From: Leptotrichia sp. oral taxon 847
GTDB taxonomy: Bacteria > Fusobacteriota > Fusobacteriia > Fusobacteriales > Leptotrichiaceae
Length of the DNA: 64,000 nt
Reading direction: 5' to 3'
Assembly (NCBI RefSeq): GCF_001553645.1
Contig: NZ_CP014231.1
Location: 1,674,001 to 1,738,000 of the forward strand
The notes under the pieces: generated by a model
The model's input: only the letters and a program-made list of their open reading frames with translations
Database searches by the model: none
Told to the model about the DNA's origin: nothing
Translations under genes and position numbers: made by a program
Shown here: positions 25,275 to 46,849 of the stretch, one piece after another
Layout: every line of letters starts with the position of its first letter
Numbering within the stretch: the stretch's first letter is position 1

Positions 25275-26086
25275 ATGAAATTAAGAGATATAATTGGCGA
25301 ATTAAAGACAATGTATAATCCTAAAATGGCAGAAGATTGGGATAATGTTGGGCTTTTAATCGGAGATGAAGATAAAGAAATAAAAAAAATACTGTTTTGT
25401 TTGGATGTGACGGAAAATGCTGTCGAAAAAGCGTTAAAAAGTGGTGTAAATTTGATAATTTCTCATCATCCAGTTATTTTTTCAGGAATGAAGAGAATTA
25501 ATAACGAAACATTACACGCAAGAAAAGTTTTGAGACTTATTGAAAATAAAATAGCTGTTTATTCAATTCACACAAATGCTGATTTTTCAGTAAATGGGTT
25601 AAATGACTTTGTGATGGAAAAATTGGATTTAGACGGAGAAACGAAAATATTAAACGAAGTTAGCTTTGAAGATTACAACGAAATTAAGGATTGTTTGGAG
25701 CAACATCATGGTGGGACTGTTAGAATAAAAATTTTAAATGAAGGAATTACTTTGGAAAATTTAGTAAAAAAATTAAATATCAATTGGGACTGCCGTATGT
25801 GAGATATGTTGGAGATAAAGACAGGGTTGTCTACAGAGTGGGACTTGTGACAGGTGGTGGAAGTTCTTTTATAAGTCAGGCAAAAGGAAATGCTGATGTA
25901 TTTTTAACAGGGGATTTGAGATATCACGAAGCACTTGATGTAGTTGAAGAAGGGGGACTTTTAGTCGATATAGGTCATTTGGAAAGTGAATATTTATTTG
26001 CGGACTTAATGGAACGGGAAGTTTCAAAGTTTTTTGATGGTGAAATGATTAAACATTATGAAAATCAAATTTTTCAATTAGGATAA
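25275..26086 (+). pseudogene. NIF3-like dinuclear metal-binding protein (YqfO family), frameshifted
   Basis: The first frame (25275-25802) carries the NIF3 N-terminal half: AEDWDNVGLLIGD, NLIISHHPVIFSGMKRI and IHTNADFSVNGLNDF. It runs off into NWDCRM and stops. The second frame (from about 25784) carries LGLPYVRYVGDKDR, VGLVTGGGSSFISQA, GDLRYHEALDVVEEGG and DIGHLESE, that is the rest of the family including the second set of metal ligands. One extra T in AATTGGGACT near 25782 would rejoin them as one protein of about 270 aa. Both halves are otherwise clean, so this is a recent mutation or a sequencing error. NIF3 family proteins bind two metal ions; their substrate is not firmly known. Confidence 0.85.
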
Positions 26087-32800: not shown

Positions 32801-33404
32801 GCTTGAAAATGAAAAAAAATATTTGGGAATTTATGTTTCAAAGCACCCGTTGGATCTAAAAAAAGTGTTAATTGAGAGAATTTCTCACAATAAAATTAAA
32901 AACATTTTCAAAAAAAATTTAAAAAACGTAAGAGTGATTGGAATACTGAAAAATCTAAATATTTTTTACACAAAAAAGAGAGAACAAATGGCAAAATTTG
33001 AACTGGAAGATTTTGATGGAAGCATCAAAGTGATTTGTTTTCCAAATAAATATGGTAATTTTGAAAATGAAATTAAAGAAAATGAAATTGTTATTTTGGA
33101 AGGGAATGTAAATTTTGAAAATGAGAAATATAATATTTTTTTAGAAAATATTTGTAAATTGGAAAATTTAGAAAAAAGGCAAGATTTGAAATTATTTATT
33201 AAAATTGACGAAGATACAATAAAAAAATCGAAAGAAATAAAAAATTTGATGTTGAAATATCGAGGAAAAAATAAATTTATTCAATTTTTGGAAAAAAATG
33301 GAAAAATAGAGCTTAAAACTTCCAAATATGGCATAAGTATATCATTAAATTTTTTACGAAGATTGGTAAAGTTAGTTGGAGAGAGAAAAATAAAAATAAA
33401 ATAA
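29862..33404 (+). CDS. dnaE: DNA polymerase III alpha subunit
   Basis: Replicative polymerase of the DnaE group, 1180 aa. The N-terminal PHP domain begins FVHLKLHTEYSLLESVGKID. The palm carries VGPGRGSAAGSIVSYAL and the catalytic aspartates in MPDIDIDFDQEQRE (around residue 420). GFNKSHSAAYSLIVYWTAFF and the helix-hairpin-helix region follow. The C-terminal OB fold reads RVIGILKNLN ... KFELEDFDGSIKVICFP. The lysine/asparagine content is extreme, as in the whole genome. Start chosen at ATG 29862 after AGGGGAAA; a TTG one codon earlier is possible. Confidence 0.96.
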   Translation: MESEFVHLKLHTEYSLLESVGKIDEYVRKASELGMTSLAITDVNMFGAIEFFKKCKNAKIKPIIGLEIFLDGLENFGEYSLTLLAKNKNGYKNLCKLSSISFEKFSRKRNKVKYEDLKQYSQDLYILSGGVNGEITKCILDKKNEIARKIMQKFSFDFDKNFFLEIPAEKKLEKVKKLLIETVKREEISNFVVTNDIYYLSEEDKILQKIVELIKDGEKSDSEKIVNSEEIKNNDFYFKNYIEMKNSFENENEIFEKAIENIQKIVENCEVDFEFHKFKFPKYELPKNISEKEFLRKLVYNGVVKRYSLASFEVENEEDIQEVIKKFSSKKFKNEKNLDGKSIIKRAEYELKIIDEMGYNGYFIIVWDFIKFSRENGIYVGPGRGSAAGSIVSYALNITDIDPLEYNLIFERFLNPERISMPDIDIDFDQEQREQVIDYVYKKYGSEHVAHIITFGTLKARLVIRDVGRVLNVKISKVDKIAKMIPFSMDLSEAKENVAELKMMYEIDRETREIIDYSLKLEGQVRHTSIHAAGIVISKDVLTDEIPTYSDGKTKVVATQYQMKELEELGILKMDFLGLKNLTILRKTVENVEESKKYNEIFFEKSKNKVFLDKIPLDNKKTYELLSNADTMGVFQCESVGIRSLMKKMKVESFSDIVALLALYRPGPLGSGMVDDFISQKNSKNEIKYIDGSLKDILAESYGMILYQEQVMKILSELAGYTLGEADEVRRAISKKNLELIQKNREKFVKNTLKKGVLQSENPQKKANEIYDLIEKFGGYGFNKSHSAAYSLIVYWTAFFKANYPLEFFAAIMSVEVSNLDRFRIFVNEAKKKNINLLLPDVNFCNKNFKVIKNENGQGESIRFGFAGVKGIGEKFVKILCEELKNGKFSSYKDFAQRMRDNGMTAKQLEILILSGALDKLEKTRNEKFELIKNFELLDADTEVNGSLFEDLNFKDEKISNSKNLKNTKLKNTKFSKAELLENEKKYLGIYVSKHPLDLKKVLIERISHNKIKNIFKKNLKNVRVIGILKNLNIFYTKKREQMAKFELEDFDGSIKVICFPNKYGNFENEIKENEIVILEGNVNFENEKYNIFLENICKLENLEKRQDLKLFIKIDEDTIKKSKEIKNLMLKYRGKNKFIQFLEKNGKIELKTSKYGISISLNFLRRLVKLVGERKIKIK

Positions 33405-33477
33405 TATCTTTTGATTAATATTTTTTTTAATATATTTTTGTAATAAATGTTTGACATTTGTACATTTTTACTTTGTC

Positions 33478-33976
33478 CTTAAAAAACGACAGAGTAAAAT
33501 AGTTAGGGGCAAATAAAAAATCTTATTTTAAGTTTTTCATTCAATCCAGAAAGTTACTAAAATAACAATTTTTTTCTATTCCTTTTTTAAGCAGAAGTGC
33601 TCATCGCCGCACCCCTGCACCCCGGCTAGTCTTCGACATTTTTATGCACTGCCAAAAAACTCGCTTACGCTCAGACAGTTTTGTCAGCACATAAAAATGC
33701 TCCGACGGTTTAAATTTTACTATTATACAAAAGGTGTCGTGATTTTTTTGGAGTAAAGACGACTGTTTGAGCACGTTTAGTGCGAGTTTCGGCTTTGACG
33801 CAGAAAAAATGCTTAGACGAGCGTGGGGATTATAAGGGGAAATGGCGGTCCTTTCCCCTTATGTAAAAAAATAAAAAAATAATATTAAACAAAATAACAT
33901 CTTGTAATCAAAAATAAGCTAAAAAATTTGAAATTAAAAAATCTGCCCCTAAAATTTTTAAACCATCTTAAAAAAC
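33478..33976 (+). mobile_element. Intact mobile element copy A with 10-bp target duplications, upstream of accB
   Basis: The element proper spans 33488-33966 (479 bp). It is flanked by the perfect direct repeat CTTAAAAAAC at 33478-33487 and 33967-33976. It begins GACAGAGTAAAATAG and ends AAATTTTTAAACCAT. Inside the ends lie inverted TTAGGGGCA (33503-33511) and TGCCCCTAA (33944-33952). A perfect 10-bp hairpin (TAAGGGGAAA at 33833-33842, TTTCCCCTTA at 33852-33861) and a larger imperfect stem built on CATTTTTATG/CATAAAAATG are present. It has no open frame of note, so it must move in trans. The right-hand repeat ends exactly 7 nt before the accB promoter's -35 box. Confidence 0.88.
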
Positions 33977-33983
33977 CTAAAAG

Positions 33984-34012
33984 TTGTAAAATGTAATATT
34001 GTATGTTATAAT
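33984..34012 (+). promoter_or_regulatory. Promoter of the accB-nusB operon, next to element A
   Basis: TTGTAA (33984-33989), 17-nt spacer, and extended -10 TGTTATAAT ending at 34012. The 10-bp repeat of element A would cover about -52 to -43 of this promoter. Confidence 0.75.
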
Positions 34013-34094
34013 AAACTATAGAAAATCAAGTGATTGTTGCAAAATGAAGAAATATAAATTTTTAAAAATGATAGTTTTAAAATGAGGAGAAATA

Positions 34095-34487
34095 ATGGAA
34101 TTAAGAGATATTCAGGAATTAATGAAAGTTATGAAAAAAGAAGAATTGGAAGAACTTAAAGTCAGATATGGAAAAATAAAATTGACATTGATTAATTCTT
34201 GTTGTGCCGCACAAAATGTAAGTGTAGCTCAACCTTTGAAAGCTAAAGAGGAAAAAGCCGTTAAAAAAGAAGAAATTATCAAATCGGATAATGTTGGAAA
34301 AATAAAATTATTAAATGTAAGTAGTGGAAAAGAAGTGAAAAAAGGTGAAATATTAGCTAAAATTTACACAATGGGAATTGAAAATGAAGTAAAATCTACA
34401 GTTAACGGAGTGATAAAAGAAGTTTTGGTTTCCGATGGGATTGCCGTTGATTTTTCAAAAGAATTATTTAAAATTGAGATAAAATAG
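34095..34487 (+). CDS. accB: AccB-like biotin carrier protein without the biotin-accepting lysine
   Basis: A 130-residue protein with an AccB-like N-terminus (DIQELMKVMKKEELEELKVR), a charged linker and a C-terminal biotinyl/lipoyl fold (NVGKIKLLNVSSGKEVKKG, then TVNGVIKEVLVSDGIAVDFS). Normal carriers have AMKMENE at the tight turn; here it is TMGIENEV, so the lysine that receives biotin is replaced by Gly94. It is followed 32 nt later by accC, so it sits at the usual accB locus. Either it has become a structural partner of AccC, or another biotinylated carrier exists elsewhere. The fold call is solid; carrier activity is doubtful. It heads an operon that continues to nusB. Confidence 0.8.
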   Translation: MELRDIQELMKVMKKEELEELKVRYGKIKLTLINSCCAAQNVSVAQPLKAKEEKAVKKEEIIKSDNVGKIKLLNVSSGKEVKKGEILAKIYTMGIENEVKSTVNGVIKEVLVSDGIAVDFSKELFKIEIK

Positions 34488-34519
34488 ATTAAAAAAGTTA
34501 ATATTTAGGAGGATTATTA

Positions 34520-35875
34520 ATGTTTAAAAAAATATTAATAGCAAACAGAGGAGAAATCGCTGTGAGGATTATAAGAGCAGCAAGAGAATTGGGAATTGCT
34601 ACAGTTGCTGTGTATTCGGAGGCAGATAAGGATTCGTTGCATGTAAAACTTGCAGATGAGGCAATTTGTATTGGAAAACCCAGTGCTGCTGATTCTTATT
34701 TAAAAATACCTAATATCATTTCGGCGGCGCAAATTACAAATAGCGAAGCAATTCATCCAGGATATGGATTTTTATCAGAAAATCAGAGATTTGCTGAAAT
34801 TTGTGAAAGAAATGACATTGTATTTATCGGTCCTAAACCAGAACTTATAAGTATGATGGGAGATAAAGCGACTGCAAGGGAAACCGCAAGCAAACATAAA
34901 ATTCCTATGACAAAAGGTTCAGACGGAATTGTTCCAGATGTTGAAGAAGCCAAAAAAGTGGCAAAATGGATAACTTATCCAGTGATGATAAAAGCGACTG
35001 CCGGTGGTGGCGGAAAAGGGATGAGAATCGCTAGAAATGAGGAAGAACTAGTTGAAAACTATGCCGTTGCACAAAACGAAGCCAAAGCAAATTTTGGAAA
35101 TCCAGATGTCTATATTGAAAAATATGTAGAAGAGCCAAGACACGTTGAGATTCAAGTAGTTGGAGATAAATATGGAAATGTTGTTCATTTAGGGGAAAGA
35201 GATTGCTCGATTCAAAGAAGGCATCAAAAATTGGTGGAAGAAAGTCCATCTGCTGGAATTGATGCCAAAACTCGTGAAAAAATGGGAAAATTTGCAGTAA
35301 AATTAGCCAAAGGAATAGGTTATGACAGTGTCGGAACATTGGAGTTCCTGGTTGACAAAGATATGAATTTCTATTTTATGGAGATGAATACCCGTATCCA
35401 GGTGGAACATACTGTAAGTGAAGAAATTACCGGAGTTGACTTAGTCAAAGAGCAAATAAGAGTGGCAGCTGGAGAAAAATTGAGCTTTACACAGAGAGAT
35501 ATAAGTATTAATGGACACGTAATTGAGTGCAGAATAAATGCTGAAGATTCTGAAAATGGCTTCTTACCGTCGTCAGGAATTTTGGAAAAGTATATCCCAG
35601 CTGGTGGAATTGGGGTGAGAGTGGATTCCCATTCGTATCAAAACTATGAAATTCCACCTTATTACGATTCAATGATAGCTAAATTGATTGTTAAAGGCAA
35701 AAATCGTGAAGAAGCAATTGTAAGAATGGAAAGAGCATTAAGAGAATTTATAATCGAAGGAGTGGATACAACAATTCCATTTCATCTAAAAGTTTTAGCA
35801 AATAAAGCGTTTAGGGAAGGAAAGTTTTATACAAACTTCATCGAAACTTATTTTAGCGAAGTTTTAGGAAAATAG
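34520..35875 (+). CDS. accC: Biotin carboxylase subunit of acetyl-CoA carboxylase
   Basis: ATP-grasp enzyme that carboxylates biotin on a carrier protein, the first step of malonyl-CoA synthesis. It begins [20 protein letters not shown]. The glycine-rich ATP loop is [14 protein letters not shown]. Further conserved segments are [42 protein letters not shown] and ECRINAEDS. The length of 451 aa is normal and active-site residues look intact. It follows the lysine-less accB. No accA or accD is in the window. Confidence 0.97.
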
Positions 35876-35976
35876 AAAATTCTCATAAGCAACATGTCTG
35901 GCTTTAATTTTTATAAAAAAGCTTTATTCTTTGTAAAAAAATTTTTCAGAAGTTATAAAAAATTTATTTTAAAAAG

Positions 35977-36005
35977 ATGAAAAAAATAAAATATTGTGGT
36001 ATAAT
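35977..36005 (+). promoter_or_regulatory. Possible internal promoter before asp23
   Basis: TATAAT (36000-36005) is preceded by TGTGG; the -35 is weak. The 228-nt gap after accC leaves room for a separate start. Confidence 0.4.
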
Positions 36006-36103
36006 TCTATTAATTAAAACAAAGTTTCCTATTTTTTAAGATGGGATAATTTGTTTAACAAAAAGAATTAAATATTTAATTTTTAAATTTAGGAGGAATT
36101 AAA

Positions 36104-36487
36104 ATGAACGAATTAGGAAATGTAAGCATATCGCAAGAAGTTGTGGCAACTATTGCCGAATTAGTAGTGTCAGAAATTGAAGGAGTAAGTAGCTTAGTTG
36201 GCGGAAAATCAAAAAATGAAATAATTAAATTTTTCCAAAGCGTATCTTCTGGCGGAAAAGGAATCGAAGTTGAAGTAGGAGAAACAGAATGTACAATTGA
36301 TTTGTATATCGTTGCAAAAATGGGTTATCAGTTGCCGGCTCTTGCTGGAGAAATTCAGTCAAAAGTAGTAAAAGCAATCACAGAAACAACTGGATTAAAA
36401 GTTCAGGAAGTAAATGTATATATTCAAAAAATTGTTGAAGATGATAAAAAAGAAGAAGTAGCAGTGATAGAAAAAGTTGATGAATAG
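36104..36487 (+). CDS. Asp23/Gls24 family envelope stress protein (YqhY-like)
   Basis: A 127-residue protein with the family pattern GNVSISQEVVATIAELVVSE, then EIEGVSSLVGG, DLYIVAKMGYQLPALAGEIQ and VVKAITETTGLKVQEVNVYI. In Firmicutes this family sits between accC and nusB, exactly as here (yqhY). Members link fatty acid synthesis and envelope homeostasis; the biochemical role is unsettled. AGGAGG precedes the start. Next comes an AmaP-like membrane anchor, 17 nt downstream, which would tether it to the membrane. Confidence 0.93.
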   Translation: MNELGNVSISQEVVATIAELVVSEIEGVSSLVGGKSKNEIIKFFQSVSSGGKGIEVEVGETECTIDLYIVAKMGYQLPALAGEIQSKVVKAITETTGLKVQEVNVYIQKIVEDDKKEEVAVIEKVDE

Positions 36488-36504: not shown

Positions 36505-37170
36505 ATGGTAGCTATATTGGGATTTTTAGCGAAATTATCAGTGATATTGGGATTTATTGGAATTGCCTTTTCTAGTATTTCAGATATTTTGTTTAAAACA
36601 ACATATTTGGATCAGTTGGATAGTGCGATTGATTTGAGCAATTTTAATGTGAAAATTTTAGTTGGAGTAGTGGCAGTAATTTATTTAGTGTTATTTTTAC
36701 TTTCATATGTCAATAAAATTACTAAATATTCTCAAAATAAAAAAGTAAAAAATAAAAATGGTGAAATTGAAGTATCAATAAAAACAATAAATGAAACTAC
36801 AAAAGAATTTTTTAAAACAAAAGAAATTATAAAAAACTCAAAAGTAAAATCACACCCAAAGGGAAAAGCAGTCGTCATCGAAGCGAGTGTGGACACATAC
36901 AATGTAGATGATTTAAACGACAAACTTTCAAAGATTCAAAATGAGTTATCCGAATATGTTTTTCGTGCGACTGGGATTACAGTTAAAAAGACTAAAATAA
37001 AATTGAGAAAAGTTTTAGGTGAAACAATAGCTGAAAAAAAAGTCATAAATTCACACAAAAAAAATTCTGTAGCAGAAAAATCTGTCAAAGAAGACCAAAA
37101 AGAAAAAGTTGAAAAAAGTGATGACGATAAAAATGATAAAGCTCTGGAAGTAAAAGAAAAGATGGAGTAA
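36505..37170 (+). CDS. AmaP-like membrane anchor for the Asp23 protein
   Basis: A 221-residue protein with two N-terminal membrane segments (residues about 3-25 and 47-68) separated by a short loop. A cytoplasmic region follows with an Asp23-like pattern (KAVVIEASVDTYNVDDLNDK ... SEYVFRATGITVKKTKIKLR). The tail is highly charged (KKNSVAEKSVKEDQKEKVEK onward) and probably disordered. AmaP proteins of staphylococci anchor Asp23; the direct adjacency here supports the same role. Ribosome binding site AGGAGG. Confidence 0.8.
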   Translation: MVAILGFLAKLSVILGFIGIAFSSISDILFKTTYLDQLDSAIDLSNFNVKILVGVVAVIYLVLFLLSYVNKITKYSQNKKVKNKNGEIEVSIKTINETTKEFFKTKEIIKNSKVKSHPKGKAVVIEASVDTYNVDDLNDKLSKIQNELSEYVFRATGITVKKTKIKLRKVLGETIAEKKVINSHKKNSVAEKSVKEDQKEKVEKSDDDKNDKALEVKEKME

Positions 37171-37326
37171 TTTAAAAAAATAAAATTGCAGGAAGAAATT
37201 GAAAATATTATCTGAAAGATGAGAACCATAAGAATAGTGGCGTTAGCTTTGTAAATTTACTGAGTACCGCAAAATTTTTTCTACCGTAGTTCTATTATTT
37301 TTGAAGATTTTAGGAAAGGAAATTTG

Positions 37327-37728
37327 ATGACAAGAAGAGAAATTAGGGAAGAAATATTTAAACTTCTTTTTGAGCATGAATTAATTGATAATGACATTCA
37401 AGAAAGAATCGAAGAAGTTATCAAAGAAAAAGCGATTACAAAAGAAGATCAGATTGATTTTTTAAAAAGTTATGTAACCCAAATTATTGAAAATGAAGAA
37501 TTTTTGATAGAAAAAATAAAAGATACACTTGACGGTTGGACTTATGAAAGACTGGGAACAATAGAAAAGGTACTGTTAAAAATTTCTTTTTATGAAATTC
37601 TTGTAAAAAACATTGGATATGAAATTGCAATAAATGAAGTTTTGGAGCTTGCAAAAAAATATTCGTACAATGATACAAAAGATTTTCTAAATGGAATTCT
37701 TGCAAAATTAGTAAAAGATATGAAATAA
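37327..37728 (+). CDS. nusB: Transcription antitermination factor NusB
   Basis: Binds boxA RNA with NusE to allow rRNA antitermination. The sequence starts MTRREIREEIFKLLFEHEL and ends NIGYEIAINEVLELAKKYSY NDTKDFLNGILAKLVKD, which is the conserved C-terminal helical core. It is 133 aa. The ATG at 37327 is preceded by GGAAAGGAAAT; a TTG one codon earlier is possible. It is the last gene of the accB operon, as in Bacillus (accB-accC-yqhY-nusB), and a terminator follows directly. Confidence 0.94.
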   Translation: MTRREIREEIFKLLFEHELIDNDIQERIEEVIKEKAITKEDQIDFLKSYVTQIIENEEFLIEKIKDTLDGWTYERLGTIEKVLLKISFYEILVKNIGYEIAINEVLELAKKYSYNDTKDFLNGILAKLVKDMK

Positions 37729-40294: not shown

Positions 40295-43200
40295 ATGAAA
40301 AGCAATAATTTAAAACAACTCAAAAAAGATTTAAAAGCTTTTGCCAAAAGAGTAAAAGACTTTAAATACACAGAATCAGCGCTGATTACATTCCTTTTGA
40401 CAGGAATGGTAATGCTTGGCGCTTCAAATTTAACATTTTCTGCTCAGGATGAGATAACAGCTCAGACTAAGCAAATAAATAGCTCAATAAGCGATATAAG
40501 ACAGCAGTTTAAAAGAGCTAGAACTGAAAATAATAAATTACTTAGAGATACAAATCTTGAACTTATCCAATTAATGGAACAAGGGGATCACGTTGTAAAA
40601 TCGCCTTGGAGCAGCTGGCAATACGGGATAAACTATTTTTATAATGACTGGCATGGACATTATAGAGGCAGAGGGGATAAGACAGACAGCTTTGTTTACA
40701 AAAGAGATGATTCAATCGTAAACAGAAGCGTTTACCCAGGAAGAATTGAAACAAAATACGGAGCAACAACATTAGGACTGGTAAGAGAGCCAAATGCCGC
40801 AATGGACGTATCGGCAGCACTGACACCAAAGAGCGTAGATAAAATAGCACCTAAATTTACAGTTCAAGGAGCAGGAGGAGGCTTTCCGAATTTTGTGACA
40901 AGGATAGTGAAAGTTCCAGGAGAACCTGGCGTAGTTAATCCTGTTATCCCAAGAACTTTAGTTTTATCATTTACATCTGGTGGAGCAGATCCTACTCATA
41001 CTCGTTATTCATATTGGATGGATAATAAGGGAGATATTTCAGGAACTTCTGTAGCAAATGGAGAAGTATATAAAACTTATTCAAGCATTACTTCATGGAA
41101 TACTTATAATGGAGCTTTTTCAGGAACTATACGAACTAGTGCATTTAATGGAGCGAGTGTAACTCCAGGAACAGATGCTGCTCTATATGGTGGAACTTCG
41201 CCTAAAAGTAATTATACAAATAGTGAAAATAGTAGCAATTTGTTTTTTAATACATTGACAAACACACCTTATTCATATTTTGGAAATGGAACGAAAATAG
41301 CATTAATAACTCCTTCATCATCTTTTCAATCAGGTGCTTACCATAGGGGAACTGTAATTAATTTGGAAACGGAAGGAAAGACAGGAAAAACTTTTAGTGA
41401 CTTGAATACTGGGCATATAATTACAGCGGATCAATATAATAGAATTCAAAATTATATGAGTAAAAGTAATTTAAATGCAAATACAAATGGACAATTATAT
41501 CATACAAATAATGGAATTGTAGAAATTGGAGGAACGGGAACACGATATGTTCATACAACTGTTAATGGTGGTAATCAAAGATTAAATATCGTTGAAAATA
41601 ATGGTAAGATTATAGGAATAAATTATAATCATAATAATGTTACTACAAGTGATAATATTGTTTTTTTTCATTCGCCAGATTTAGCAGGAAATAATGATTA
41701 TCAACATTTGTATGCTAATTCTAAAAATGGAGAAATTTCTTTATATGGACAGGGTGGAGCAGTAGCCTTATATACAGCAGCTAAAAATGTAAATTCTACA
41801 TTGGAACAAGGCGATGTTTCATTTATAAATGAAGGAACAATAAATTTATATGGTAAAGAAAATGTTGGAGTTGCAATAAATAATGACACATATGGAAAAG
41901 TAACACCAAAAACTAATTTTATTTTATTAAAACCAATTAATATTTATGGAGATAATGCGGTAGGACTTTATAATGCCAACAGTGGTGACGGGACAAGAAA
42001 TGATAAAAATGAGGCAAGATTTATAATAGGAAATCAATCTCAAAATAAGCTACTAACTTATACTTCTTCAAATTCACTATTAAGTGGAAGTTATACTGCA
42101 AACAGTTCTGCTAGTGATACAGGATATAGTAATAAATACACTGAAGGAGTTATAGGAATTTATCAGGATGCTAATGGTACATTAAAATCAGCACTTCCTG
42201 AATTAACTATGGAGGCTTTTACGAGAAAATCAGTTGGAATATATACTAAAAACGGAAATGTAGATATAGATCATGGAACTGTAATAACAAATAAAGGTAA
42301 AATCAGTATGTTAGGTGGGGAAGAGAATGTTGGGTTATATGCTTCTGGTGGAGGAATTTCCTTTAAGGGAGACATAGAAATGGGAGGTTCAGCTTCTACT
42401 TTATCGGATGCTATAACAACAGGATATAAAAATACAGCAGTATATGCTACTAATTCAAATAAAGTTACAGTGAAAGGAGGTATTACAACTGATAAGAATG
42501 GTAAGGAATTAACAGAAAGTACAGTTGTTTATGCTAATAAATCCTCAGAAGTTGTTTTAAATGGAGAGAATGACATTAAACTAAAAGCAGCTTCAAAAAC
42601 AATAACAAATTCTACTGGTAATAATACTGGAGTTTTTGTTGAAGATGCAACAGTAATGTTCGGTGATAATAATAAGGGAACTCCTTTACCTACTGGAACT
42701 ACAACTGGAAGTAGTACAAAAGGTTCATCAATCACAATTACTAGTGATGATCGTAAATTGGGAACAGCGTTGTATGCTAAAAATGGTGGAATGATAAATG
42801 CAATTGGAGATTCGTTAGCTAAAGGGTTAAAAATCACAGTAAAGGATGGAGCTTCGGCAGTAGCATCAGTAGGAAAAAATTCAAGTAGTAAAGTTTCTCA
42901 AATAAATGTTAAATATTCGACAGTTGATTATGATGGTGAAGGATTTGCATTTTATACAGATACAGATGGAAAAATTAATGCAGATAATTCTAAAGTAAAA
43001 TTATCAGGAAAAGCAGTAGGATTTGGTATAAAAGGGACTTCATCAGGAGGATATACTTCAAATGTATCGTTATCAAATGCTAATTTTGAAATAGCCTCAG
43101 ATGATGTTATATTAATGAATGTTCTTAATCCAAGTGTATTAAAACTAAGTAATTTTGTTTCAACATTATCAGCAGCTTCAGGATTAAGTGCAAGTAATAT

Positions 43201-46200
43201 TACTACAAATGGTCCAGGAGCAGGAGATAATTATAAACTAGCGGTTGTAGAAGGATTGAATAATGGAAAGTCATTTATATTTGATAATGATTTAGATAAA
43301 AGTTTAGCAGTAAGCTCTTCTAATTCATCAACAAATGATTATAAATATGTTCGCAATTTTTTGATTCAAAGAAGTATATTGGATGTAAATGCTGATGTAA
43401 AAGCAGTGTTAAGCTCAGCAGATGCCAATACAATTAAAAATGTTGCTTCGGGCGCACCGGTTATCGGACTTGACATTAGTTCAAGCACTGGGGCTGCAAG
43501 TAATGCGGAAACAGGAATTAATGTAAACGGTAAAACTGTAACGGTTGACAGAACGGATGCAGGTGCTGGAGCAATCGGGCTATATACAAACTTTGGTAAA
43601 ATTAATATAAACAGTGGAACTTTGAATGTTGAAACAGATACTACTAATACTGTGAATGATCAGGCTGTGGGAGTTTATGCTGTAAATGGATCAGAAGTTA
43701 ATAATAATGGTGGAAATATTAATGTTGGCGGTAAAAATTCGATTGGTATTTTAGGGCTTGCATATAGGGAAAATTCTGCAGGAACTGTAATTGGTAATGA
43801 ATTTGGGTCTGCTAATGAAGGAAAAGCAACTATAAATAATGATGGTAAGATTACTATGGATGGTGAAGGAGCTAAAGGAGTATTTATTAAGAATAATAAT
43901 AGTGCTTCATCTGTAGCGGCAAATGTTGCAAATAATTTATCGAATGGTGTAATTACAATGTCTGGAGCAGGTTCGGTTGGAATGTATGCCGATAAGGCAA
44001 CTCTTAACAATTATGGAAAGATTGATTTGAAACCAGGAACTAATGCTAAGATAGGTATGTATGGAATTAATGGCTCTGATCTTACAAACCAAGCGACAGG
44101 ACAAATTATAGTTGGAGATTCTGTTATTTCATCAGCAACTGATGTGCCTAATATTGGTATGTATACATCAGAAAGTAATTTGTTGAAAAACTATGGAATT
44201 ATAGATATTAAAGAAAATTCTTATGGAATTTATGGAGAAAATGTTCAAGCCTTTGGTACTTCCAAGATTAAAGTGGGTAAAAATGGTGTTGGAATATTTG
44301 CTAAAGGAACATCTGGAACTGGAACTGTAACGTTGGACGCAGGTTCTGAGATTACGACAGTTGCAAGTGCAAAAGATAAGGAAGCAGTTGGAGTATTTAC
44401 AGCGGGAACTAATCCTGTAAATATAAACGATAACGGTTCAAAAATGGATCTTAAGGACTGGACATTTGGATACGTAATAAAAGCTCCTGGAACATTGACT
44501 ACAAATGGAAGTTCAACTGTAACGTTAGATAATGAAGCTGTTTATGCATATTCTGATAATGATTCTTCGATAATTAAGAACTATGCACCAATTAAAGCAA
44601 ATGGCGATAGAAACTATGGAATTTATTCATCAGGTACAGTTGACAACTATGGAAATATGGATTTGAGATCTGGAAATGGTGTAGGTAATATTGGTATTTA
44701 TTCAACAAAAGGAGTTGCAACAAACTGGGCAACAATTGATACTGGTAAAACAAACAAGACTACAAAATCGTATGGAATTGGTATGGCAACAGGTTATTAT
44801 GATGGAACTTCATCAAGAAATCAAGGAACTATTATAAATAAAGGCACAATTAATGTAACAGAAGAAAATAGTATAGGAATGTATGCAGTTGGAAGAGGTT
44901 CTAAAGCAATTAATGCCGCTGGAGGAATAATTAACCTTAGCGGTAAAAATACAATTGGTATGTACATCGATCAGGAAGCGGAAGGTGAAAACTACGGTAC
45001 TATTACAGGTAACGGAGATAATTTGAAAGGTGTTGTAGTGGCAAATCAAGGTAAATTCAAAAACTATGGTACAATTCAAATTACTGGAAATAAAGGTATA
45101 GGAATTTATACTGATAAAGGTGTAGTGTCTGCTGACGGTATAGATGGGCCTGGAGCCGTAAATACAGGATCTTTTAAAAATGTATATGAATCACAGCCAA
45201 CTGACGAAAAAGTCGAAGGAAGCGTAACAATAAAGGTTCCGCCAAAGGCAACTCCAGTAACAGTTACAATAAATGGAGTGCAAGTTCCAATAACAGGCGT
45301 TGACACAAACGTTGCCTCGCCTTCAGCAACCGAAGTAACAGTTACATCGCCTTCAGGAGTTACAGTATTAGATCTTGCAAAATCAGGGCTTATGAATTTC
45401 CCTTCAGGATCTAAAGCAACAAGTGTAGGAATGTATGTTGATACATCTGGAATAAAATATACAAATCCTATTCAAGGATTAAGTAATTTAGCAGGACTTA
45501 CAGATATTAACCTGTATTTTGGAACGGAAGCTGCAAGATATACAAATGCTAGAGCGATAGAACTAGGAGATAATATAATAAAACCATATAACGATGCACT
45601 TGCAAGCTTAGTTACAACTGGAACAGTGTTAAATACTAATTCAAGCAGCCTTACATGGTTAGCAATACCAACAAAATCAGCGGCTACAGGATTGTATGAC
45701 AAAGTATATCTGGTTAAAATTCCATATACAGACTTTGTAAGTGCAAAAGATCCTAATACTTACAATTTCTTAAATGGACTGGAACAAAGATACGGTGTTG
45801 AAGGGCTTGGTACGAGAGAAAAGGAACTGTTTAATAAATTAAATGATCTTGGAAAAGGTGAACAGCATATCTTTACACAGGCTGTAGATGAAATGAAAGG
45901 ACATCAATATGCAAATGTTCAACAAAGAATCAATGCCACTGGAAATACTTTGGATAATGAATTTGGATATTTAAGAAATGAATGGAGAAATCCAACTAAA
46001 CAAAATAACAAGATTAAAGTGTTTGGTGCCAGAGACGAATACAATACCGATACTGCTGGAATTATCGATTATAAGAGCAATGCTTATGGTGTAGCTTATG
46101 TCCATGAAGATGAAACAGTTAAGATGGGTAATTCAAGTGGATGGTACGCTGGAGCTGTAACAAATAGATTTAGATTTAAGGATTTAGGAAAATCAAAAGA

Positions 46201-46849
46201 AGATCAGACTATGGTTAAACTAGGAATTTTCAAAACAATGTCGCCAGCAGCTGATCATAATGGAGCATTACAATGGACAATTGCAGGAGATGTATTTGCA
46301 GGAATTAATCACATGAAACGTAGATTCTGGATAGTTGATGATACATTTGAAGCAAAATCTGATTATAATTCTTATGGTGCTGCCTTGAAAACTGATATAG
46401 GATATGATATCAGAATGAGTGAAAGAACACATTTACGTCCATATGGAGCTTTGAAAATGGAATACGGAAGATTCAATAAGATAAAAGAAGATAATGGTGA
46501 AATGAGATTAGAAGTGAAAGGAAACGACTATTTCTCAGTAAAACCAGAAGTTGGAGTTGAATTTAAATATGTACAGCCGCTTGCTGTGAGAACAAATCTA
46601 ACAGTAGGATTGTCAGCTGCTTATGAAAATGAGTTAGGAAAATTACAAGATCAAAATCAGGCAAGAGTAAGATATACAACAGCTGGTTGGTATGATTTAG
46701 AAAAAGAAAAAGAAGATAGAAGAGGAAACGGTAAGTTTGACTTGAATATCGGAATTGACAATACAAGATTCGGAGTGACAGTAAATGGAGGATACGACAC
46801 TAAAGGTAACAATATAAGAGGTGGACTAGGACTTAGATTAATTTACTAG
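40295..46849 (+). CDS. Giant type V autotransporter adhesin
   Basis: A surface protein of 2184 aa. Residues 1-50 form the extended N-terminal signal of fusobacterial autotransporters (MKSNNLKQLKKDLKAFAKRV, then LITFLLTGMVMLGASNLTFS). A short coiled coil (residues ~50-90, QIRQQFKRARTENNKLLRD-like) follows. The passenger, to about residue 1700, is Asn/Gly/Thr-rich and built of beta-helix units of the type NYGTI-x-x-x-G-x-x-x-GIGIY (for example NKGIGIYTDKG, ENSIGMYAVGRG). The last ~285 residues are the beta-barrel (IKVFGARDEYNTDTAG to GGLGLRLIY), ending in an aromatic residue as needed for Bam-dependent assembly. Likely an adhesin or aggregation factor; the ligand cannot be told. A strong GAAAGGAAA ribosome binding site precedes it, and a terminator follows. 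Confidence 0.92.
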   Translation: MKSNNLKQLKKDLKAFAKRVKDFKYTESALITFLLTGMVMLGASNLTFSAQDEITAQTKQINSSISDIRQQFKRARTENNKLLRDTNLELIQLMEQGDHVVKSPWSSWQYGINYFYNDWHGHYRGRGDKTDSFVYKRDDSIVNRSVYPGRIETKYGATTLGLVREPNAAMDVSAALTPKSVDKIAPKFTVQGAGGGFPNFVTRIVKVPGEPGVVNPVIPRTLVLSFTSGGADPTHTRYSYWMDNKGDISGTSVANGEVYKTYSSITSWNTYNGAFSGTIRTSAFNGASVTPGTDAALYGGTSPKSNYTNSENSSNLFFNTLTNTPYSYFGNGTKIALITPSSSFQSGAYHRGTVINLETEGKTGKTFSDLNTGHIITADQYNRIQNYMSKSNLNANTNGQLYHTNNGIVEIGGTGTRYVHTTVNGGNQRLNIVENNGKIIGINYNHNNVTTSDNIVFFHSPDLAGNNDYQHLYANSKNGEISLYGQGGAVALYTAAKNVNSTLEQGDVSFINEGTINLYGKENVGVAINNDTYGKVTPKTNFILLKPINIYGDNAVGLYNANSGDGTRNDKNEARFIIGNQSQNKLLTYTSSNSLLSGSYTANSSASDTGYSNKYTEGVIGIYQDANGTLKSALPELTMEAFTRKSVGIYTKNGNVDIDHGTVITNKGKISMLGGEENVGLYASGGGISFKGDIEMGGSASTLSDAITTGYKNTAVYATNSNKVTVKGGITTDKNGKELTESTVVYANKSSEVVLNGENDIKLKAASKTITNSTGNNTGVFVEDATVMFGDNNKGTPLPTGTTTGSSTKGSSITITSDDRKLGTALYAKNGGMINAIGDSLAKGLKITVKDGASAVASVGKNSSSKVSQINVKYSTVDYDGEGFAFYTDTDGKINADNSKVKLSGKAVGFGIKGTSSGGYTSNVSLSNANFEIASDDVILMNVLNPSVLKLSNFVSTLSAASGLSASNITTNGPGAGDNYKLAVVEGLNNGKSFIFDNDLDKSLAVSSSNSSTNDYKYVRNFLIQRSILDVNADVKAVLSSADANTIKNVASGAPVIGLDISSSTGAASNAETGINVNGKTVTVDRTDAGAGAIGLYTNFGKININSGTLNVETDTTNTVNDQAVGVYAVNGSEVNNNGGNINVGGKNSIGILGLAYRENSAGTVIGNEFGSANEGKATINNDGKITMDGEGAKGVFIKNNNSASSVAANVANNLSNGVITMSGAGSVGMYADKATLNNYGKIDLKPGTNAKIGMYGINGSDLTNQATGQIIVGDSVISSATDVPNIGMYTSESNLLKNYGIIDIKENSYGIYGENVQAFGTSKIKVGKNGVGIFAKGTSGTGTVTLDAGSEITTVASAKDKEAVGVFTAGTNPVNINDNGSKMDLKDWTFGYVIKAPGTLTTNGSSTVTLDNEAVYAYSDNDSSIIKNYAPIKANGDRNYGIYSSGTVDNYGNMDLRSGNGVGNIGIYSTKGVATNWATIDTGKTNKTTKSYGIGMATGYYDGTSSRNQGTIINKGTINVTEENSIGMYAVGRGSKAINAAGGIINLSGKNTIGMYIDQEAEGENYGTITGNGDNLKGVVVANQGKFKNYGTIQITGNKGIGIYTDKGVVSADGIDGPGAVNTGSFKNVYESQPTDEKVEGSVTIKVPPKATPVTVTINGVQVPITGVDTNVASPSATEVTVTSPSGVTVLDLAKSGLMNFPSGSKATSVGMYVDTSGIKYTNPIQGLSNLAGLTDINLYFGTEAARYTNARAIELGDNIIKPYNDALASLVTTGTVLNTNSSSLTWLAIPTKSAATGLYDKVYLVKIPYTDFVSAKDPNTYNFLNGLEQRYGVEGLGTREKELFNKLNDLGKGEQHIFTQAVDEMKGHQYANVQQRINATGNTLDNEFGYLRNEWRNPTKQNNKIKVFGARDEYNTDTAGIIDYKSNAYGVAYVHEDETVKMGNSSGWYAGAVTNRFRFKDLGKSKEDQTMVKLGIFKTMSPAADHNGALQWTIAGDVFAGINHMKRRFWIVDDTFEAKSDYNSYGAALKTDIGYDIRMSERTHLRPYGALKMEYGRFNKIKEDNGEMRLEVKGNDYFSVKPEVGVEFKYVQPLAVRTNLTVGLSAAYENELGKLQDQNQARVRYTTAGWYDLEKEKEDRRGNGKFDLNIGIDNTRFGVTVNGGYDTKGNNIRGGLGLRLIY

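Follow-up and report, generated by a model that had tools for sequence, protein, structure and literature searches.

A lysine-less AccB-like protein encoded beside accC in Fusobacteriota, a candidate non-catalytic subunit of acetyl-CoA carboxylase

The N-terminal region of the Escherichia coli biotin carrier AccB binds AccC. In plants, the BADC proteins are homologues of the carrier BCCP that lack the AMKL motif and share 25-30% identity with it; inhibition was suggested in vivo, and reconstitution suggested that BADC glues BC and BCCP together (partial text of PMC11926652, a 2025 paper that there calls BADC unique to the plant enzyme). The biotin carboxylase of Chloroflexus depends for its tetramer on a hairpin that a fused BCCP has outside its biotin core (PMC11077971, partial text), and the Bacillus gene order accBC-yqhY is kept in Fusobacteria (PMC5437119, partial text).

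The locus described here lies in the window, the whole 64,000-nucleotide stretch of Leptotrichia sp. oral taxon 847 DNA that was analysed, and repeats the order carrier, accC and Asp23 family of Bacillus subtilis accBC-yqhY, but the place of accB is taken by a lysine-less protein and the lysine-bearing AccB is encoded elsewhere. Judging from the partial text of PMC5437119, the gene counted there as accB in Fusobacteria is presumably the lysine-less one. The features of the locus are as follows.

34095..34487, + strand: lysine-less AccB-like protein (open reading frame of 130 aa with an ATG start; Pfam and TIGR profiles; kept at accC in 81 of 81 genomes)
34095..34196, + strand: N-terminal AccB-type domain, residues 1-34, helix and two strands (model; profile match to 4HR7_B; pooled dN/dS 0.10)
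34197..34268, + strand: linker, residues 35-58 (low pLDDT at 38-52; pooled dN/dS 0.41)
34269..34484, + strand: biotinyl-type barrel, residues 59-130, without the AccB thumb (model, alignment; pooled dN/dS 0.12)
34374..34376, + strand: Gly94 codon GGA, at the biotinyl-lysine position (translation, alignment across relatives)
34520..35875, + strand: accC, biotin carboxylase, the sole copy in the genome (TIGR00514, 736.8 bits against a cut-off of 626.5; Pfam)
36104..36487, + strand: Asp23-family gene in the yqhY position (PF03780)
36505..37170, + strand: open reading frame without a Pfam match at E 1e-5 (reading-frame list, Pfam)
37324..37728, + strand: nusB (PF01029)

The lysine-less gene is the first of this series, with a ribosome-site-like GAGGAG ahead of it at 34084-34089 and 32 bases between its stop codon and the start of accC, after which come the Asp23-family gene, the frame at 36505..37170 and nusB. 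Its translation includes LAKIYTMGIENEVKS, residue 94 is glycine, and the turn that reads AMKMENE in a biotin carrier reads TMGIENE. The protein matches Pfam Biotin_lipoyl (PF00364) with 42.2 bits (gathering cut-off 22.1) and possesses the N-terminal domain and biotinyl barrel of an AccB, whereas the biotinyl lysine of the AMKM-type turn is replaced by glycine and the AccB equivalog model TIGR00531 gives only 45.4 bits against a cut-off of 115.2. An earlier sequence-only reading had proposed that glycine stands at the lysine position of an undecayed gene, with the fold and the carrier-accC order intact, and this was borne out by the intact 130-codon frame, the whole-gene dN/dS of 0.16, the barrel of the structural model and the recurrence of glycine in all 81 relatives.

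The genome of the window is complete, with 2.19 Mb in one contig, and encodes a single accC together with a lysine-bearing AccB of 159 aa far from it (G000:C1:792252-792713), which carries the turn VEAMKLMNE, scores 133.8 bits with TIGR00531 against the same cut-off and is 35% identical to the lysine-less protein over residues 14-124 of the latter. The genome also encodes accD-accA and one biotin ligase, along with another biotin carrier whose top scores are against models of pyruvate carboxylase B and decarboxylase. Since AccC, a lysine-bearing AccB, AccD-AccA and a biotin ligase are all encoded, an ordinary acetyl-CoA carboxylase can, by gene content, be built without the lysine-less protein, and the usual start of fatty acid synthesis is available. 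The suggestion that AccC serves a carrier encoded elsewhere thus fits this genome, and there is no need for the alternative offered with it, a different start to fatty acid synthesis. The idea that the other AccB has an AccC of its own was rejected for the window's genome, which has one accC. Elsewhere, four genomes of the window's genus (G071, G072, G076 and G078; L117-L120) have a second accC with no adjacent carrier, each with a further lysine-bearing AccB elsewhere, and G044 has a second accC adjoined by a K-type accB.

The arrangement extends across the phylum. Among 98 Fusobacteriota genomes sampled, accC scored above its cut-off in 81, and all 81 carry the lysine-less gene at accC; the accC frame lies between -58 and +117 bases from the end of that gene in the 80 genomes measured, the remaining locus being split between contigs (G087). 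Of 51 loci (L065-L115), 50 have an Asp23-family relative after accC, and in the exception only 11 bases of contig are left. Glycine occupies the lysine column in all 81 accC-linked homologues and lysine the same column of the second AccB in 29 of 29 rows and in 54 of 54 further rows. This count leaves out L002, L003, L116 and L122-L124 as duplicates or other carriers, adds with the 54 rows two carriers (L059 and L063) that form the C-terminus of longer proteins, and includes repeat rows (L186 is the same as L063, and L035 and L178 both come from G044). A full-length, lysine-bearing second AccB is encoded elsewhere in 79 of the 81 genomes and was not found in G015 and G086, whose assemblies are both 82% complete. 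In ten Fusobacteriota genomes without accA and accC, nothing matched the lysine-less protein better than E 0.001, and three genomes with accA and no accC (G016-G018) gave only partial barrel matches to it; the gene therefore goes with accC. What had been treated as one odd gene is thus a family found phylum-wide, with parallels in two other lineages described below. Among the matches listed, the named genome whose AccC is closest to that of the window (85% identity) also belongs to Leptotrichiaceae, and the NCBI ranks place it in Fusobacteriota.

Several further observations concern the composition of these carboxylases. The three genomes with accA and no accC encode accD-accA with neither accC nor a full-length AccB (L184), leaving no visible biotin carboxylase partner for the carboxyltransferase. 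In two genomes of other families (G064, L059; G063, L063), the lysine-bearing AccB, including its N-terminal domain, makes up the C-terminal end of a pyruvate carboxylase B-like protein of about 610 aa, and because of this fusion one AccC may serve two carboxylases there. The neighbours of the lysine-bearing accB recur across both families (L036, L041, L044, L046 and L047); from our reading of the open reading frames they are presumably folD-like and, in some, ACT-like genes before accB, and CBS-like and CNNM-like genes after it.

The best solved relative of the lysine-less protein, found with a profile of 31 diverse members against the PDB, is full-length E. coli AccB (4HR7 chain B), matched over profile positions 3-139 at E 1.2e-17 with the N-terminal domain included. 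The AlphaFold2 model (mean pLDDT 81.1, pTM 0.48) comprises an N-terminal helix and two strands, a loose linker, and a barrel predicted with confidence, which matches biotinyl domains and has Gly94 in the turn between two strands. The protein shares with AccB/BCCP (TIGR00531; 4HR7 chain B) the order of N-terminal domain, linker and barrel and the place before accC, but differs in lacking the biotinyl lysine, in a rebuilt turn, in a shortened thumb and in a score far below the cut-off. The turn is mostly [GA]-x-[IV]-x-[TAV]-[IMV]-G-[IVL], where the lysine-bearing copy has C-I-V-E-A-M-K-L. That copy has a thumb of 9 residues, which is cut to 3 to 8 in the lysine-less proteins, with only 3 residues in its place in 35 of the 81. 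Across the 31 diverse members, G68, G94 and G105 are the only invariant residues.

For the lysine-less protein, ten hand-chosen close pairs gave pooled dN/dS values of 0.10 (N-terminal domain), 0.41 (linker) and 0.12 (barrel); the corresponding values for the lysine-bearing AccB were 0.11, 0.39 and 0.10, from nine hand-chosen close pairs, one of which (L167/L164) has the start of its N-terminal domain set too far in. In both folded domains, purifying selection thus keeps the lysine-less copy as strictly as the catalytic AccB, the working carrier.

Outside the phylum, the control comprised named accC loci of diverse phyla, the best 80 of 576 confirmed ones, with a lean towards Bacteroidota. An upstream carrier was found at 79 of them, with lysine at the column in 76, glycine in two and arginine in one, so the fusobacterial glycine exceeds chance; one of the two glycine loci belongs to a Leptotrichiaceae genome. 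The carrier at accC in Candidatus Proruminimicrobium quisquiliarum (Elusimicrobiota) reads VAMRVN, with lysine changed to arginine, and that upstream of accC in a bacterium of another phylum (L242) reads VEVMGV, with lysine changed to glycine; both genomes encode a lysine-bearing AccB elsewhere. A search of 19 genomes of the L242 phylum gave seven lysine-less AccBs, three with glycine and four with aspartate, all in genomes that also have a lysine-bearing AccB. Four of the seven adjoin accC, the stretches around the other three contain no accC frame, and some relatives retain lysine beside accC.

In a tree of 90 hand-chosen rows with the turn columns removed, including 25 of the 81 fusobacterial lysine-less proteins, these proteins formed one clade (100/98) and the lysine-bearing fusobacterial proteins another (100/97), and the best tree requires three changes between lysine and other residues. 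A single lysine-less clade including the Elusimicrobiota protein was rejected (AU p 5e-6), whereas one clade of the fusobacterial and L242-phylum lysine-less proteins is compatible with the data (p 0.355), as is grouping both fusobacterial AccBs in one clade (p 0.186). Because the Elusimicrobiota grouping is rejected and the fusobacterial and L242-phylum grouping is not, the tree tests support two separate lysine losses, and perhaps three, the count on the best tree. At slightly better than even odds, AccB gave rise repeatedly to a dedicated biotin-free carrier subunit, once close to or at the base of Fusobacteriota, again in Elusimicrobiota and perhaps also in the L242 phylum, parallel to plant BADC and forming a control or assembly layer.

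The reading we favour, with a probability of roughly 0.6, is that the lysine-less protein, bound to AccC, serves heteromeric acetyl-CoA carboxylase as a dedicated non-catalytic subunit with a part in assembling or tuning it. The AccB of the accC operon would have lost the biotin lysine together with the turn recognised by the biotin ligase, and the second AccB, encoded elsewhere, would be the biotin carrier. Made together with AccC, the lysine-less protein would use its barrel and its AccB-type N-terminal domain to bind AccC, and would either help to assemble AccC with biotinylated AccB or set the uptake of AccB by AccC. This is supported by the glycine in 81 of 81 proteins, the linkage to accC, the lysine-bearing AccB in 79 of 81 genomes, the purifying selection, the match to full-length E. 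coli AccB and the same arrangement in other lineages, and plant BADC and the Chloroflexus BCCP are precedents for a carrier-like part with an effect on biotin carboxylase that does not depend on carrying biotin. It is weakened by the shortened thumb, since the plant BADC work implicates the thumb on the BCCP side. A scaffold role, as the sequence-only reading had suggested, is plausible.

The protein could instead be a competitive inhibitor that takes the place of biotinylated AccB on AccC and curbs malonyl-CoA synthesis, as would suit an AccB architecture without the lysine and the earlier in vivo model of plant BADC summarised in the partial text of PMC11926652. That same text, however, argues against inhibition in plants, and a gene placed directly before the sole accC would tie the supply of an inhibitor to that of its target; inhibition is unlikely, and an aid to assembly is the more likely direction of effect. 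An N-terminal domain kept by selection would also suit an inhibitor or a transcription regulator.

E. coli AccB autoregulates, and a former AccB at the head of a stretch of carrier, accC, Asp23 and nusB could likewise control its own operon, or link AccC to the neighbouring Asp23-family protein. The latter would accord with Bacillus, where YqhY is genetically tied to the enzyme and a suppressor lies at the extreme N-terminus of AccB (PMC5437119, partial text). Against both stand the lack of any Pfam match to a nucleic-acid-binding family in the protein, the lack of any known RNA element in an Rfam scan of 33300-36200, and a barrel conserved as strictly as the N-terminal domain; a regulator is improbable. 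An intact fold and a turn under selection would suit a barrel that carries some other group or works for another carboxylase, but this is very improbable: glycine lacks a side chain that could be modified, and none of the other turn residues is constant in the 81 proteins. A sequencing error at 34374-34376, which the sequence-only reading had named as fatal to its claim, or a decaying gene has a negligible chance and is rejected by the glycine in 81 of 81 genomes and the low whole-gene dN/dS, nothing in the window's gene and only one relative of the 81 (L101, G028), short at the N-terminus, pointing that way. Three of the 81 lysine-less frames (L065, L066 and L101) have no ATG, GTG or TTG near the expected start.

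A non-catalytic subunit would make the lysine-less fusobacterial protein, by analogy, a bacterial counterpart of plant BADC. Like BADC, it is homologous to BCCP, lacks the biotinylation motif and occurs together with a true BCCP, but it is bacterial and lies within the accC operon, and the likeness is one of description. No BADC was among the 60 best matches listed in the PDB profile search, and the titles and abstracts of the open-licence literature searched describe no bacterial lysine-less AccB as a subunit. If the subunit reading is true, a non-biotinylated carrier paralogue, called unique to the plant enzyme in the partial text of PMC11926652, evolved in bacteria too, and fusobacteria would offer a small genetic system for settling assembly versus inhibition of acetyl-CoA carboxylase. 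The step that opens fatty acid synthesis would then have a layer of control or assembly that accB annotation conceals. The annotation itself is corrected, in that the gene in the accB place of these genomes cannot be the biotin carrier, a point of importance to metabolic modelling and to any work on acetyl-CoA carboxylase in fusobacteria.

Other parts of the window hold minor features of their own. The lysine-less gene is preceded by an intergenic element of about 286 bases (33590-33875), which is a member of a large dispersed repeat family with at least 40 near full-length copies in the genome, itself included, at 91-100% identity (40 of 120 candidate places scored). Two overlapping reading frames at 25275-25802 and 25784-26086 (25275-26086 overall) look like the halves of one frameshifted gene, which we take to be of the Nif3-type family, and a very large reading frame of 2184 aa at 40295-46849 looks like an autotransporter adhesin.
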